Source of the DNA: Nocardioides marmoribigeumensis
Lineage (GTDB): Bacteria; Actinomycetota; Actinomycetes; Propionibacteriales; Nocardioidaceae
Direction: 5' to 3'
Length of the DNA stretch: 64,000 bases
NCBI RefSeq assembly: GCF_031458325.1
Contig: NZ_JAVDYG010000001.1
Coordinates: forward strand, 434,001-498,000
Of the stretch, positions 1,928 through 7,201 are shown one piece after another; the first letter of the stretch is position 1; each line of letters starts with the position of its first letter. The notes under the pieces were generated by a model. It had not been told where the DNA came from. It saw only the letters and a program-made list of their open reading frames with translations, and searched no databases. A program made the translations under genes and the position numbers.

Positions 1928-2197
1928 TCAGCTGTGGCTGTTGAGCTTGTGCCCCTCGACGCCCTCGTCGTCGTCCGGCACGGCCTGGTTCCAGGAGATC
2001 CGGTGACCCTCGGTCTCCTCGTCACCGACCACGGTGTGGCTGGTGTGCTTGTGGCCCTCGGTCTCCTCGTCGACGAGCGTGTGGCTGGTCAGCTTGTGGC
2101 CCTCGGTCTCCTCGTCGTCGACGAGCGTGTGACTGGTCAGCTTGTGACCGGAGACGTCGTCGAAGGTCTCCTCGCCGGGCTGGAACTTGCTGCTCAT
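1928..2197 (-). CDS. Small His/Asp/Glu-rich tandem-repeat peptide
   Basis: An 89-residue protein with no family that I recognise. After a 16-residue N-terminal part it consists of five repeats opening with GH at residues 17, 33, 48, 64 and 82. The consensus is GHKLTSHT followed by an acidic spacer (LVDDEETE). The fourth unit has diverged (GHRISWNQ) and the fifth stops after GHKLNSHS. It has ten histidines, no cysteine, no signal peptide and no membrane segment. The start is fixed by an AGGAGG ribosome site just upstream. It lies 134 bp downstream of a subtilisin-like protease gene on the same strand. Repeated cores with acidic linkers beside a cytosolic S8 protease suggest a multi-core ribosomal peptide precursor; a histidine-rich metal-binding protein is the main alternative. 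Confidence 0.8.
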
Positions 2198-2231
2198 GGC
2201 TGCCTCCTGTGGCTGGTGAACGGTGTGTCCG

Positions 2232-2266
2232 CGGTCCACTCTCGCCCCCCGTGGGCCGAGAGACCG
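2232..2266 (-). other. Hairpin between protease and repeat-peptide genes
   Basis: The arms CTCTCG (2239-2244) and CGAGAG (2257-2262) are inverted, and flanking CGGT/ACCG can extend the stem across a small bulge. It lies in the 134-bp gap between the protease stop and the peptide start. It could be an attenuating terminator, an mRNA stability element, or chance in GC-rich DNA. There is no U-tract. Confidence 0.3.
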
Positions 2267-2275
2267 TTCGCTGCC

Positions 2276-2307
2276 CGACACAAGCACCGTCGGATCGGCG
2301 ACACAAG
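2276..2307. promoter_or_regulatory. Direct repeat CGACACAAG x2 upstream of the repeat peptide
   Basis: The 9-mer CGACACAAG occurs exactly twice, at 2276-2284 and 2299-2307, with a 23-bp period (about two helical turns). This is the gap upstream of the repeat-peptide gene. Tandem sites of this spacing are typical of regulator binding, so it may control the peptide separately from the protease. No clear -10/-35 pair was recognised. Confidence 0.35.
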
Positions 2308-2331
2308 AAGACAAGGTCCTGCCACGTCGGG

Positions 2332-3162
2332 TCAGTCGGCGTTGCGGGCCACCGCGTGGAGGACCGACTTGACCTGGAACGGGGTGAGGCCGGGGTGCTT
2401 GCTCAGCACCCGCGCCACCATGCCCGCGACGTGCGGGGTCGCGAAGGAGTTGCCGCTGGCGTTGATCGTCGTGCCGTTGGTCCACGCCACGTCGAGGTCG
2501 ATGCCGCGTGCCCCGAACTCGACCGGCGGTGAGGTGTTGTAGGCCAGGGCCTCGGGGTCGTCGCCGGGGAGTGCCGCCACCGAGAAGACCGAGGCGAACT
2601 GCGAGGGGTAGGTCGGACCGGGCAGGTTGTTGGCCGCGCAGACGAGCATGAGGTTGGCGAAGTACGCCTCGTCGGCCGCCTCGTGCAGGATCGCGTACCA
2701 CTGGTCGCTCTTGGACGACAGGCTCATGTTGGCCACGTGCATGCCGTTGGCGATCGCCCACTGGATGCCGCCGTAGAACGCCGAGGTCTTGCCCTTGAGG
2801 TTGCTGCCCAGGACCCGCACGCTCCACAGCTCCACCCCCGGCGCGAGGGCGCGGACGATCGCCGCGCAGGCCGTGCCGTGTCCGTAGAGGTCCTCGTGCG
2901 GTCCCTCCACGACGCGGTAGCCCTCCTCGGCGTCGGGGGCGGGCTCGATCGCCACGGCGCCGGCCACACCGCCGACCGCGGGGTGGTCGGCGTCGACGCC
3001 GCTGTCGATGATCGCGACCTTGACCCCGGTCCCGTCGCCGCCGGCCCACGCCCAGTCGCGCCGCGGCTCGGGCAGCGGGAGCCCGGTGACCCGGCCCGGT
3101 CCCTGGCCGGTGAACGCGCCGGACCACGCGGGGAGACCCGGCCCCCCGGCCTCGTCGCTCAT
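2332..3162 (-). CDS. S8 (subtilisin-like) serine peptidase, no signal peptide
   Basis: A 276-residue peptidase with a complete subtilase triad: Asp53 in IIDSGVD, His95 in YGHGTACAA, Ser239 in GNSFATPHVAGM, and the oxyanion Asn in CAANN (about 178). The N-terminal 40 residues are short and Gly/Pro-rich. There is no signal peptide and no cleavable propeptide of usual size, so it should act in the cytosol, as do S8 enzymes that process peptide precursors. The start is the ATG overlapping the GAF gene stop by 4 bp, implying coupled translation. The histidine-rich repeat peptide follows on the same strand and is the obvious candidate substrate; that link is inference. Confidence 0.92.
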   Translation of the reverse strand: MSDEAGGPGLPAWSGAFTGQGPGRVTGLPLPEPRRDWAWAGGDGTGVKVAIIDSGVDADHPAVGGVAGAVAIEPAPDAEEGYRVVEGPHEDLYGHGTACAAIVRALAPGVELWSVRVLGSNLKGKTSAFYGGIQWAIANGMHVANMSLSSKSDQWYAILHEAADEAYFANLMLVCAANNLPGPTYPSQFASVFSVAALPGDDPEALAYNTSPPVEFGARGIDLDVAWTNGTTINASGNSFATPHVAGMVARVLSKHPGLTPFQVKSVLHAVARNAD

Positions 3163-3893
3163 CGGCGCCCGCGCTCCGACCGCGCGAAGGTGGCCACCTG
3201 CTGCAGCACGCCCTGCGCGAGCCGGGCGCTCGCCGGGCCCGCGGCGGCGACCGATCGGAACGACTCGGCCAGCTCCCGCAGGGCGAGGCCCGCCTCGGGG
3301 TCGACCAGCGAGGCCAGCGCCTCGTCGAACTGCCCGGTGGCCTCGGGGTCGGCGAGCGTGCGCAGCAGGCCGGAGCCGAGGGCGTCGTACATCGCGGAGA
3401 GCCGGATTATCGCCGTCAGCTGCGAGGCGACCAGGCCGAGGAGGCCGAGGTCGCGCGCGGACTCCCCCACGCCGGGGTCGAGCACCTCGATCACGCCGGC
3501 GGGCTCGCCGTCGGCGTCGACCAGGGGCGCGGCCAGGATGGTGGTGGGGACGTAGTCGGTGGACTCCGCGACGTCGCGGGCGAAGCGCGTGTCGGTGGCG
3601 ACGTCGGCGATGCGGATCGGCTCGCCCGCCATCGCCACCCAGCCGGCGATCCCCCGGCTGACCGGCATGGTGACCCCGATGATCGCCTCGCTGCCGATGC
3701 CGTCGGCGGCGACGAACCGCAGGGTCGCGCCGTCGGGCTCGACCAGGGCGACGGAGCACGCGGCGGCGTCGAAGGTCGCGCGGACCCCCGCCGTCGCAGC
3801 GGCCAGCTCCTGCTCGAGCCGGGAGGGTCGCGCGGCCTCCCCGAGTGCGTCCCCCAGTGCGGCGACGAGCGCCGCGGTGTCCCGGTCCGTCAT
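3159..3893 (-). CDS. GAF domain protein
   Basis: A 244-residue protein with one GAF domain at about residues 30-170 (VTMPVSRGIAGWVAMAGEPIRI and the ILAAPLVDADGEPAGVIEV strand pair are diagnostic). A helical C-terminal part of about 75 residues has no recognised domain. There is no kinase, cyclase or DNA-binding module, so it is a stand-alone sensor or adaptor. It is the first gene of the leftward GAF-protease unit and overlaps the protease by 4 bp. It diverges from a Crp/Fnr gene across 54 bp. GAF domains bind cyclic nucleotides, haem or small molecules; the neighbouring cyclic-nucleotide-binding domains make a nucleotide ligand plausible but unproven. Confidence 0.88.
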   Translation of the reverse strand: MTDRDTAALVAALGDALGEAARPSRLEQELAAATAGVRATFDAAACSVALVEPDGATLRFVAADGIGSEAIIGVTMPVSRGIAGWVAMAGEPIRIADVATDTRFARDVAESTDYVPTTILAAPLVDADGEPAGVIEVLDPGVGESARDLGLLGLVASQLTAIIRLSAMYDALGSGLLRTLADPEATGQFDEALASLVDPEAGLALRELAESFRSVAAAGPASARLAQGVLQQVATFARSERGRR

Positions 3894-3947
3894 GGCGCGC
3901 AGTCTGGCACGCTTGGCGGGCGGCAGCGCTGTGATACACCTGCGCCC

Positions 3948-4604
3948 ATGGAGTGGCCCCTGCTCGCGTCCCTGCCGGACGAGGCCCGCGAGGCCGTGCT
4001 GCGAGCCGCCCGCCGACGCCGCTTCGCCCGCGGCGAGGTCGTCTTCCACGAGGGCGACCCGGCCGACTCCCTCCACCTGGTCCTCACCGGCCACGTCGCG
4101 GTCCAGGTCGCCACGCCCGGCGGTGACCGGGCCACCCTCAACGTGCTGGGACCCGGTGCGCACGTCGGCGAGCTCGCGCTCCTGCCCGACCGTCACGAGC
4201 GCTCCGCGACCGTGACCGCCCTCGACCAGGCCGAGACGCTCGTGCTGTCGGCCTCGTCCTTCGACCAGCTCAGGCTCGCGCACCCCGAGGTCAACGAGAT
4301 GCTCGTCCTGCTGCTGGCCGAGCGCGTGCGTGAGCTGAGCGCACGGCTCCTCGAGGCGATGTACGACGGCCTCGACCGTCGGCTGCACCGCTGCCTCTAC
4401 CGCCTCGGCCGGGTCTACGTCGACGGACCGGGCCCGGTGACCATCCCGATGACGCAGGACCAGCTCTCCGACCTCGTGGGCGGCACCCGCCCCTCGGTCA
4501 ACCAGGTCCTGCAGCGGCTCGTCGACGAGGGCGTCGTCGAGCTCGGCCGTGGCCGCGTGGTCCTGCACGACATACGCACGCTGCGCCGCAAGGCCGCGCT
4601 CTGA
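3948..4604 (+). CDS. Crp/Fnr family transcriptional regulator
   Basis: A 218-residue protein with an N-terminal cyclic-nucleotide-binding domain (about 5-120) and a C-terminal winged helix-turn-helix (about 140-215, with QDQLSDLVGGTRPSVNQVLQRL as the recognition region). The phosphate-binding cassette keeps its key residues (GELALL ... RSATV), so real cNMP binding is likely. It is divergent from the GAF-protease unit and 16 bp upstream of an MFS gene that carries its own cNMP-binding domain. It probably controls both directions from the 54-bp intergenic region. A weak promoter (TTGGCG, 16 bp, TACACC) ends close to the ATG. Confidence 0.92.
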   Translation: MEWPLLASLPDEAREAVLRAARRRRFARGEVVFHEGDPADSLHLVLTGHVAVQVATPGGDRATLNVLGPGAHVGELALLPDRHERSATVTALDQAETLVLSASSFDQLRLAHPEVNEMLVLLLAERVRELSARLLEAMYDGLDRRLHRCLYRLGRVYVDGPGPVTIPMTQDQLSDLVGGTRPSVNQVLQRLVDEGVVELGRGRVVLHDIRTLRRKAAL

Positions 4605-4620
4605 GCAGCCCGGGGGGACC

Positions 4621-6321
4621 ATGACGACCGTGACCACCAAGCCGACGCTGCGCTCGAGCCTGCGGCACCGCGACTACCGGCTGTTCATCGGGGCGTTCAC
4701 CACCTCGTGCATCGGGTCGTGGGCCTACAACGTGGCGCTCGCGGTGTGGCTGATCGAGGCCACCGGGTCGGCGGGGTGGGTCGCCGGGTCGACGGTCGCG
4801 CGCTTCGCCCCGGCCCTGGTGATGAGCGCCTACGGCGGGGTGCTGGCCGAGCGCTTCGAGCGCGTGCGGCTGATGGTGCGCGTGGACTGGCTGTGCGCCG
4901 CCCTCATGGCCGTGATGGCCGGGCTCATGGCCCTCGGGGCGCCGGCGATCGCGGTGGTCCTGGTGGCGATGCTGACCTCGAGCCTGGGCCCGGTCTACCA
5001 GCCGGCGGCCGCGGCGATGACCCCGCAGCTGGTGCCCGAGCGCGACCTCGCCTCGGCCAACGCGCTGCGCAACACCGTCGACAACATCTGCGTGATCGCG
5101 GGTCCCGGCCTGGGGGCCCTGCTCCTCCTCGTGGCCGACCCCTGGCTGGCGGTCCTGGCCAACGCCCTGACCTTCGCCGTCTCCGCCCTCCTGGTCTCGG
5201 CGGTGCGCCAGCGCAGCGAGCCGGTCGACGTCACCGAGGGCGGGCAGGCAGGTCCGCTCGCGCAGATGCTGGTCGGCGTCCGCACGATCGGGGACTCCAC
5301 GACCACCGCGGTGCTGGTCGGGTTCAGCGTGCTCGCCACGTTCGTCTACGGCACGGACACCGTGCTCTTCGTCGTGCTGTCGGAGGAGCGGCTCGGCACG
5401 GGCCCGGAGGGCTACGGCTACCTCCTCGCGGGTCTCGGTGTCGGTGGCGTGGCGGCGGCCGGCGTGGTCGCCCGCATGGAGCGGCTGCCGCGCCTCGGTC
5501 CGGTGATCGTGGCCGGGCTCGCGCTCTACTGCCTCCCCACGCTGCTCTTCCTCGTCATGGGGTCGCCGGCGCTGGCGTTCGCCGCGCAGGTCGTGCGCGG
5601 CGCCTCGACCCTGGTGGTCGACGTCCTGGCGATCACGGCGCTGCAGCGCGCGGTCCCCTCCGACCGCCTGGCGCGGGTCTTCGGCGCCTTCGACGGGCTG
5701 TGCCTGCTGGCGATCCTGGTCGCCTCGGTCCTCACGCCCGTCTCGCTCCACCTCGTCGGGCTCGACGTCACGCTGTGGGTCGTGGGGCTCGCGGTGCCGG
5801 TGCTCGGCCTCGCGGCCTGGCCGCTCCTGGCGCGGATGGACGCCGAGTCCGCCGGCCGCCGGGCGGCACTGGCGCCGCGCGTCCGGCTGCTGTCCGGGAT
5901 CGGGCTGTTCGCGGAGGTCCGCGAGGGCGCGCTGGAGCAGTTGGCCGGCCAGGCCGAGGAGGTCTCGGTCCCGGCCGGGACGGCCGTGGTGACCCAGGGC
6001 GAGCCGGCCGACGCGTTCTACGTCATCGAGTCCGGCGACCTGGCCGTGAGCTCCACCGGGGAGGACGGGGTGGCGCGCGAGTTGCCCGAGATGGGGGCCG
6101 GCACCGGCTTCGGCGAGATCGGCCTGATCGAGGCCATCCCCCGCACGGCCACCGTGACCGCACGGACCGACGCCGCGCTGCTCAAGGTGTCCGGCCAGGC
6201 GTTCCTCGCCGCCCTCACCGCCGACCAGCCGTCGGCGGCGCTCCTCGACGGCGCCTCGGTGCGCCTGGGCCGCACGCACCCCGGCCGGTCGCTGACCCGC
6301 GCCGGCCTCGCCGAGGGGTGA
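4621..6321 (+). CDS. MFS transporter fused to a C-terminal cNMP-binding domain
   Basis: A 566-residue fusion. Residues about 15-410 form an MFS transporter with some 12 hydrophobic segments. Residues about 430-545 form a cyclic-nucleotide-binding domain with an intact cassette (GEIGLIEAIPRTATV). The start is the ATG after GGGGGACC, 16 bp after the Crp/Fnr stop; the longer frame upstream lies inside that gene. Actinobacteria do have MFS proteins with appended cNMP domains. The domain suggests transport gated by cAMP or a similar nucleotide, and the neighbours suggest a role in exporting a product of the cluster. The transported substrate is unknown. Confidence 0.9.
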   Translation: MTTVTTKPTLRSSLRHRDYRLFIGAFTTSCIGSWAYNVALAVWLIEATGSAGWVAGSTVARFAPALVMSAYGGVLAERFERVRLMVRVDWLCAALMAVMAGLMALGAPAIAVVLVAMLTSSLGPVYQPAAAAMTPQLVPERDLASANALRNTVDNICVIAGPGLGALLLLVADPWLAVLANALTFAVSALLVSAVRQRSEPVDVTEGGQAGPLAQMLVGVRTIGDSTTTAVLVGFSVLATFVYGTDTVLFVVLSEERLGTGPEGYGYLLAGLGVGGVAAAGVVARMERLPRLGPVIVAGLALYCLPTLLFLVMGSPALAFAAQVVRGASTLVVDVLAITALQRAVPSDRLARVFGAFDGLCLLAILVASVLTPVSLHLVGLDVTLWVVGLAVPVLGLAAWPLLARMDAESAGRRAALAPRVRLLSGIGLFAEVREGALEQLAGQAEEVSVPAGTAVVTQGEPADAFYVIESGDLAVSSTGEDGVARELPEMGAGTGFGEIGLIEAIPRTATVTARTDAALLKVSGQAFLAALTADQPSAALLDGASVRLGRTHPGRSLTRAGLAEG

Positions 6322-6364: not shown

Positions 6365-7201
6365 ATGAGCCTCTCGATGTTCACCGCCGACGGCGACCAG
6401 CTCGTCCCGACCGACATCGCCCGCAGCATGTGGAGCCGGGACCAGATGCACGGCGTCGCGGTCAGCGGAGCCCTGGCGCGGGCGCTCGAGCAGCACCTGC
6501 AGGGGCTCGGCCGCGACGACCTGGTGCCGACGCGCTACCGCGTCGACCTGTTCAAGGCCGCCCGCATGGAGCCGTGCACGGTCACGGTCGAGGAGGTGCG
6601 TCAGGGGCCGCGGCTGTGCCTCCTCGACGCGACCCTGGTGCAGGGCGAGGTCCGCGTGGCCCGCGCGTCCTGCCTCTTCCTGCTCCCGACCGAGAACCCC
6701 TCGGGTCGCGCCTGGGAGCCGAGCGAGCGCACGGGTCCGCCGCCGCTGGACGTCGTTCCCGTCAGCGACGAGCCGCGCGTGCCGTTCTTCGCCAGCGACT
6801 CCCCGTGGAGCCAGGACTTCGCGGCCCACCAGAACGCCGGCCGCAAGCGCACCTGGCAGGCAGGGCTCCCGGTCGTCGAGGGCGAGCGGCCCACGCCGTT
6901 CCAGGTCGTCGCCGCCGTCGCCGACGCCACCAGCATGGTCGTCAACTGGGGCACCGAGGGCGTGCAGTACATCAACACCGACATCGACCTCGCGATCGCC
7001 CGTCTGCCCGAAGGTCTGGAGATCGGCTTCGCCGCGTTCGACCGGGTCGAGGTCGACGGGCTCGCAGTCGGGTCCGCCACGGTCTTCGACCGACGGGGCC
7101 CCGTCGGGGTCGCGTCGGTCACCGCGCTGGCCAACGCCAAGCGACCGGTGGACTTCGAGCAGGTCAGGTACGACGACGACGGGACCCGTCACGCGACCTG
7201 A
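6365..7201 (+). CDS. Acyl-CoA thioesterase-like (double hotdog) protein
   Basis: A 278-residue protein resembling actinobacterial thioesterase-family proteins of the TesB/double-hotdog type. The first half contains a hotdog-like RYRVDLFKAARMEP and the second WGTEGVQYINTDIDLAIARLPEG. It has no signal peptide or membrane segment. It would hydrolyse acyl-CoA thioesters; chain preference is unknown. It starts 43 bp after the MFS gene, and a possible -10 (ACAATC) in that gap could give it its own promoter. Membership in the upstream cluster is therefore uncertain. It ends convergent with the next gene. Confidence 0.75.
   Translation: MSLSMFTADGDQLVPTDIARSMWSRDQMHGVAVSGALARALEQHLQGLGRDDLVPTRYRVDLFKAARMEPCTVTVEEVRQGPRLCLLDATLVQGEVRVARASCLFLLPTENPSGRAWEPSERTGPPPLDVVPVSDEPRVPFFASDSPWSQDFAAHQNAGRKRTWQAGLPVVEGERPTPFQVVAAVADATSMVVNWGTEGVQYINTDIDLAIARLPEGLEIGFAAFDRVEVDGLAVGSATVFDRRGPVGVASVTALANAKRPVDFEQVRYDDDGTRHAT

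Follow-up and report, generated by a model that had tools for sequence, protein, structure and literature searches.

A candidate multi-core ribosomal peptide system with an S8 protease and cyclic-nucleotide components in Nocardioides marmoribigeumensis and its relatives

The stretch described here, hereafter the window, comprises 64,000 nucleotides of Nocardioides marmoribigeumensis (bases 434001-498000; the genome is a single contig of 4.44 Mb), and it carries a locus in which a gene for a repeat peptide stands beside genes for a subtilisin-like S8 protease, a GAF protein, a Crp/Fnr regulator and a major facilitator superfamily (MFS) transporter. This locus probably encodes a multi-core ribosomal peptide system, whose precursor would be matured by the protease, controlled by a cyclic nucleotide monophosphate (cNMP) and exported by the MFS pump. 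The argument comes from sequence comparison: peptide and protease recur together across genomes, an acidic motif ahead of each peptide segment is conserved, a Crp-like operator pattern precedes the precursor genes, and the protease is kin to those found beside lanthipeptide synthetases. The original prediction had placed five genes here and read them as one peptide system. Sequence and Pfam comparison found all five in place, together with the five GH repeats of the 89-residue peptide and the ATGA overlap between the S8 and GAF genes; that prediction had overlooked the operator, the cyclase found in relatives and the link to lanthipeptides. The features are as follows.

1928..2197, minus strand: repeat precursor, 89 residues, five GH repeats, an acidic stretch preceding each
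2203..2208, minus strand: Shine-Dalgarno sequence AGGAGG of the precursor gene
2262..2283, minus strand: predicted operator copy 1, TTGTGTCGGGCAGCGAACGGTC, among the two best matches in the 64 kb (matrix trained without the window)
2285..2306, minus strand: predicted operator copy 2, spaced 23 bp from copy 1, the other of the two best matches
2332..3162, minus strand: S8 (subtilisin-like) protease, 276 residues, Asp53-His95-Ser239, prodomain and signal not seen
3159..3893, minus strand: GAF protein, 244 residues, ATGA-coupled to the S8 gene, kin of cyclic-nucleotide GAFs
3948..4604, plus strand: Crp/Fnr regulator with cNMP domain
4621..6321, plus strand: MFS transporter with C-terminal cNMP domain, candidate exporter
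6365..7201, plus strand: acyl-CoA thioesterase-like gene (4HBT_3), possible member, whose homologue at locus L022 has two operator copies upstream

In the Pfam search the window proteins matched Peptidase_S8 (1.5e-28), GAF (6.8e-14), cNMP_binding (7.5e-24) with HTH_Crp_2 in the Crp/Fnr protein, and MFS_1 (3.9e-23) with cNMP_binding (3.5e-18) in the transporter; the precursor peptide had no family in Pfam, NCBIfam or PADLOC. As predicted, a hydrophobic N-terminal signal was not visible by eye in either the peptide or the protease. Since a gap of 134 bases holding the operator copies separates the S8 stop from the precursor gene, the latter is probably its own transcription unit.

Repeat precursor and S8 protease

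The window protease scores 100.4 bits against a Pfam gathering score of 21.8, which places it among the S8 subtilases, and the Asp-His-Ser triad is invariant in 11 S8 sequences; a prodomain was not recognisable by Pfam. At E<=1e-30 the protease was found in 11 of 149 genomes of the same family, with 61-100% identity. A repeat profile (A2), built from ten repeat pairs, matched ten of the 149, distributed as 9 of the 11 genomes with the protease vs 1 of the 138 without it (Fisher p=7e-12). That sole exception (G005, 6e-4) has only one motif, in one frame, and appears to be a chance match. When the loci were read with a strict rule, demanding at least two copies of [DEN][DEN]?[VTAI][EQA][GA]H and at least 15% acidic residues, a precursor was found in 10 of the 11 genomes, the eleventh (G100) having a weak one. 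At class level, in a set of 394 genomes that overlaps with the family set, the protease occurred at E<=1e-60 in 27 and the repeat in 5 of these vs 0 of the 367 others (p=1e-6). The profile lacks sensitivity, since it left 22 of the 27 unmatched; 18 such loci, when read, gave six strict precursors, four of them missed by the profile, e.g. DDTQGHNRLHS in four copies and DDVAGHHREPPG in three. Two precursor genes lie away from the protease, one about 12 kb distant (L192:9929-10327, genome G130) and one a second copy (L193:7459-8691, genome G006); lack of a precursor near the S8 gene is therefore not proof of its absence.

To follow the system further, species genomes were scanned with the S8 alignment; the list of loci was longer, and its top 80 were used, of which 38 carried an S8 at 42-71% identity in Actinomycetota, Chloroflexota, Thermomicrobiota, Dormibacterota and one Acidobacteriota. 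A locus labelled Spirochaetaceae appears identical to the contig of L174, an actinobacterial-class genome, and three duplicate contigs were left out (L033, equal to L024; L045, equal to L181; L038, judged equal to L174). The recurrence that the original prediction proposed to look for in actinobacterial genomes was found, and the system reaches beyond them. Compared with 27 control loci of other S8 proteases, the 63 clade loci, whose counts are favoured because some supplied the search queries, showed an adjoining GAF gene in 58 (controls 0), a nearby MFS-cNMP gene in 26 (0), a class III cyclase within 6 kb in 18 (0), a nearby Crp gene in 37 (3) and a strict precursor in 33 (0). The gene groups recurring in at least four loci were only S8, the Crp/MFS cNMP group, GAF and the cyclase. 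The S8 clade holds 62 rows of a 77-row tree made by a quick method with SH-aLRT support only; L075 is among the 63 loci and absent from the tree, and three rows labelled EGHrepeat in it (L029, L031 and L181) received that label on weaker grounds. In L187-L191 (families f18 and f20), which branch off separately within the clade, no repeat precursor was seen.

In total, the strict rule identified 36 precursors in 35 of 65 loci; L192 and L193, the second regions of G130 and G006, count among the 36 and lie outside the 63 loci. The 36 came from 971,948 bases of test sequence, whereas 51 control stretches totalling 769,553 bases yielded 1, and the reversed motif matched once in the test loci. In the window itself, a degenerate two-copy DNA pattern had 2 matches vs 0 in 100 dinucleotide shuffles.

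GHKLTSH had been taken as the conserved core, and this did not hold: what relatives conserve is the acidic D[VT]xGH and not KLTSH, and the sequence downstream is species-specific and mostly basic. The 129 motif copies have mostly D/E at P6-P5, V/T at P4, E/Q at P3, G at P2 and H at P1, a composition largely imposed by the rule. Mean charge is +1.3 over the six residues after H (127 segments) and -2.6 over the five before the motif, and the first five residues of the segments are 47% identical within a precursor vs 11% between precursors. Of 93 motif spacings, 26 equal 16. Because the stop codon follows 2-6 residues past the last matched H in 18 of the 36 precursors, with ends such as HRVLR, HNRLHS, HTRLNHG, HLRAPGR, HRRKGMY and HRLRGTT, the sequences hint that the short run after the last H is the functional core; in the window the last motif, GVEGH, is missed by the strict rule, so that its tail was counted as 24 residues and not 6. 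Between repeats pN/pS was 0.31, a biased value since the calculation was restricted to pairs with at least 60% likeness, with cleaner cases in L034 (10 synonymous, 0 non-synonymous changes) and L177 (15, 0). The two Chloroflexota precursors L053:8660-9166 and L054:4974-5513 have a second, inner repeat level between their VEGH motifs (QRAPQRDA..., IAKIAKI...), and the L054 segment IAKIAKIAKIAKI has a cationic-amphipathic look.

Metal binding by the repeats, either GHK-like or through an amino-terminal Cu/Ni motif after a cut before E-G-H, was also considered. The window repeats do read EGHK (four GHK and one GHR), and H is nearly universal in the precursors, where the rule required it. However, the residue behind H is not conserved, H itself is replaced by N in L174 and by Y in the precursors of the lanthipeptide loci, and no metal-uptake gene group recurs in at least four loci; we regard this explanation as very improbable. 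Because the residues after GH vary and H can be replaced, the GHK metal binding suggested earlier is left unsupported.

Operator pattern and cyclic-nucleotide components

Expectation-maximisation over the 220 bases upstream of the 36 precursor genes returned a palindrome, nTcTGTCgGCtaGCcGACAgAn, in 32 of them, starting 70-132 bases ahead of the start codon, with a matrix of 16.6 bits, where ten shuffled sets gave 7.8-9.0. Crp-family sites have a 5-6-5 shape, and the predicted operator is of this shape; we infer that the Crp protein of the cluster itself would bind it. Scanning at a score of at least 10 gave 53 sites over 937,946 bases of clade sequence, a figure that includes the training regions, vs 1 over 618,356 control bases, and in the relatives and the window eight of nine close pairs were spaced exactly 23 bp. 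When the matrix was trained without the window, or without the window and L022, its two best sites in the 64 kb were those at 2262 and 2285; copy 1 scored 11.3 in the matrix scan. A matrix trained outside the clade of the window recovered 12 of 18 held-out upstream regions at a score of at least 7 vs 31 of 2000 random windows.

Outside the training regions 22 sites were counted in 20 loci (one of 23, a tandem partner at L181, was left out), 14 preceding system genes and 8 not. Those before precursors are at L024, L031, L050, L174, L181, L182 and L184 (twice), and the L174 precursor, with three DVEGN repeats, had been overlooked by the motif search. The others stand in the gap between GAF-S8 and cyclase genes (L025), before MFS-cNMP genes (L026, L037), before a cNMP-domain protein (L036) and before a thioesterase gene (L022, twice). 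At L184:10593-10643 two operator copies 29 bp apart precede a minus-strand open reading frame (ORF) of 287 residues, with one DDVEAH at its start and then a long Ala/Gly-rich chain. The L022 pair (L022:4264-4308) lies ahead of an acyl-CoA thioesterase-like gene, whose homologue in the window (6365-7201) directly follows the MFS gene, and for this reason lipid or acyl chemistry may be tied to the system.

The nucleotide theme of the original prediction emerged strengthened. The best solved relatives of the GAF profile are the GAF domain of a cGMP phosphodiesterase (5w10, 1.7e-33), an HD phosphohydrolase (4mcw) and an adenylate-cyclase GAF pair (1ykd), followed by PDE5, PDE2A and PDE10A, with the DevS GAFs far lower. 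The window GAF alone gave 13 matches, 12 named phosphodiesterase or adenylate cyclase, which establishes kinship only; not every GAF of the cyclic-nucleotide kind binds a nucleotide. Members of the Crp family that bind cNMP carry a phosphate-binding cassette with Arg-Ser/Thr, and cassette-like stretches can be read in the Crp protein (GEL...ERSA) and in the MFS protein (GEI...PRTA). In relatives, Guanylate_cyc-AAA_16-TPR proteins flank the cluster, and in L188 and L191 cyclase, S8 and GAF genes are consecutive on the same strand. Taken together, the GAF kinship, the nearby cyclases and the Crp-like operator strengthen the view that the system is cNMP-linked.

Lanthipeptide-associated relatives and a proposed pathway

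A LANTHIPEPTIDE link was found in Ktedonobacteria, where the S8 proteases of L052 and L055 (47-52% identical) adjoin class IV lanthipeptide synthetases (LanL). Against NF038150, whose cut-off is 650, the L052 synthetase scored 675.9 bits and that of L055 573.2 bits, below the cut-off with this still its top family. A GAF gene lies beside the S8 gene in L055, and a cyclase is near in both. Small ORFs at these loci resemble NHLP leaders at sub-cut-off scores and carry DVAGY, EVTGY, DVQGY, EVSAY or EVSGY ahead of a short C-terminal part. In the tree, the proteases of L052, L055 and L057 form one branch of a six-row group with Thermomicrobiales, inside the 62-row clade, and the Thermomicrobiales member L044 of this group has a VEGH repeat precursor; the label LanL_NHLP includes L057 by its likeness to L055, as the L057 contig starts at the S8 gene. 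L050 carries a single EDEVEGH behind a leader-like stretch. In these sequences a leader-type precursor thus has D-V-x-G-H/Y a single time, whereas a repeat precursor has it ahead of every segment. Subtilisins usually prefer a hydrophobic P4, a small P2 and an aromatic residue or His at P1; since D-V-x-G-H/Y fits this preference, a cut after H/Y is proposed. Near another S8 relative, in an acidobacterium (44%), a small ORF (L067:3306-3569) has DVQAY followed by a Cys/Trp/Tyr-rich end.

These loci also bear on two other explanations. The repeat protein might be an inhibitor, chaperone or decoy of the protease, whose active site would be filled by the acidic GH repeats until a cNMP/GAF signal releases it for another, unseen substrate, as the lack of a recognisable prodomain, the tight co-occurrence of precursor and protease and motifs that would suit the protease cleft might suggest. 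Segments that are species-specific and alike within a precursor are unexpected of a general inhibitor, however, and at the LanL loci the matching motif stands ahead of the C-terminal part of leader-type precursors, so we hold this explanation to be unlikely. The second is a pathway for ribosomally synthesised and post-translationally modified peptides (RiPPs), in which an unlinked or unrecognised tailoring enzyme would modify the product and the repeats would serve as its cores. S8 proteases of the same clade do accompany LanL, and radical-SAM-like genes lie close to the S8 gene in L190 and L191, L190 having in addition a small ORF that carries EVEAH and has a Cys end. Yet among the four gene groups recurring in at least four loci, where not all neighbours were annotated individually, there is no tailoring gene, and this pathway seems quite unlikely.

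The pathway that we favour begins with a rise in cNMP, upon which the cNMP-bound Crp/Fnr protein would act on the TGTC-N8-GACA operators before the precursor gene and activate it; in some relatives the GAF-S8/cyclase or MFS gene would be under the same control. The precursor would be a chain of short, mostly basic segments between acidic D-D-[V/T]-[E/Q]-G-H sites, and each of these would be cut in the cytosol by the S8 protease, to which a GAF protein that senses cNMP would be coupled, most likely just behind H (P4 V/T, small P2, P1 H or Y). The MFS pump, gated through its own cNMP domain, would then export the products, for which roles as signal or antimicrobial are both possible.

Several observations weigh against this pathway. 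Cutting after H alone leaves acidic tails on the inner repeats, so a second trimming step would be needed, and within-repeat identity stays flat over the whole unit, giving no core border. As for the operator, shuffled sets also give 19-28 nominal sites, with weaker matrices; the matrix trained outside the clade scores the window site just 4.7; reverse training recovers 5 of 18 upstream regions vs 21 of 2000 random windows; and no operator scoring at least 7.5 precedes GAF-S8, Crp or MFS in the window. The genome has eight class III cyclases, all away from the locus in the family search, and none was found in the first 14 kb of the window. MFS-cNMP is not nearby in 37 of the 63 clade loci and no strict precursor is present in 30, some contigs ending early. 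The idea that these genes act as a unit, which the recurrence supports, would have been refuted by either of two outcomes, protease loci consistently lacking the peptide or the peptide being widespread elsewhere; neither emerged, even with those 30 loci.

Comparison with known systems

In the titles and abstract openings of the open-access literature searched, preprints being outside, the motif and gene layout were undescribed, and the system is apparently an unnamed member of the multi-core ribosomal peptide systems. As in RiPPs, there is a gene-encoded precursor with a recognition part and a core (conserved motif, variable segments); a dedicated tailoring enzyme is lacking among the recurring groups, LanL occurring in L052 and L055 only. 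The class IV lanthipeptide loci share the S8 clade, the GAF gene beside S8 (L055), the near cyclase and a D/E-V-x-G/A-Y akin to the repeat motif, and they differ by LanL itself, which is not among the gene groups of the repeat loci, by NHLP-like leaders and by one segment per precursor. This shared protease clade joins repeat precursors to leader-core lanthipeptides and bears on the origin of multi-core precursors. If the proposed pathway is true, it would represent a large bacterial peptide class, predictable from a short motif and an operator, that escapes genome mining based on tailoring enzymes, and it would give roles to orphan pieces such as prodomain-less S8 proteases, GAF-only proteins, MFS-cNMP pumps and cyclase-AAA-TPR proteins.

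Among characterised families, the best NCBIfam match of the window protease is QhpE (NF049966), with 109.4 bits below the cut-off of 165, so membership was rejected. QhpE is a cytoplasmic subtilisin-like protease that removes the leader of quinohemoprotein amine dehydrogenase before export by a dedicated pump, and it may serve as precedent for a cytoplasmic S8 acting ahead of pump export; its substrate is one protein subunit, here replaced by a repeat chain, and the available portion of that account names no GAF or cNMP genes (PMC7876137). Mycosin membership was rejected by NCBIfam comparison. Pycsar or other cNMP defence, which would pair a cNMP-gated toxic effector with a cognate pyrimidine cyclase, was rejected too: apart from one general subtilase model, the PADLOC matches are confined to the cNMP domain portion, and a TIR domain was not found in the Pfam search of the window proteins. 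TIGR03896 (cNMP-domain protein, bacteriocin-type transport) and TIGR03903 (TOMM kinase/cyclase fusion) place, by name, cNMP domains or cyclases beside peptide systems; their scores are far under the cut-offs and the partners differ. Cyanobactin precursors of the PatE type have a multi-core layout. The likeness extends to PatA/PatG, S8 proteases that cut at repeated recognition sequences, whereas in the portion of the account available cyanobactin cores are cyclised and modified and cNMP genes are not part of the system (PMC10885120). The score against TIGR03895, 26.6 bits vs a cut-off of 421, excludes membership.

The remaining comparison is with yeast, where the alpha-factor precursor carries tandem copies of a short peptide with acidic spacers and is processed by Kex2, a protease of the S8 family. 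That system differs in being eukaryotic, in using the secretory pathway and in its basic cut sites. Tentatively, one may go further and see in these loci a bacterial counterpart of the alpha-factor/Kex2 logic, in which one cNMP would set transcription (through Crp and the operator), maturation (through GAF and S8) and export (through the MFS pump and its cNMP domain) of unmodified, tandem-copy short peptides, serving as signals or weapons across phyla, with a protease shared with lanthipeptide leader peptidases.

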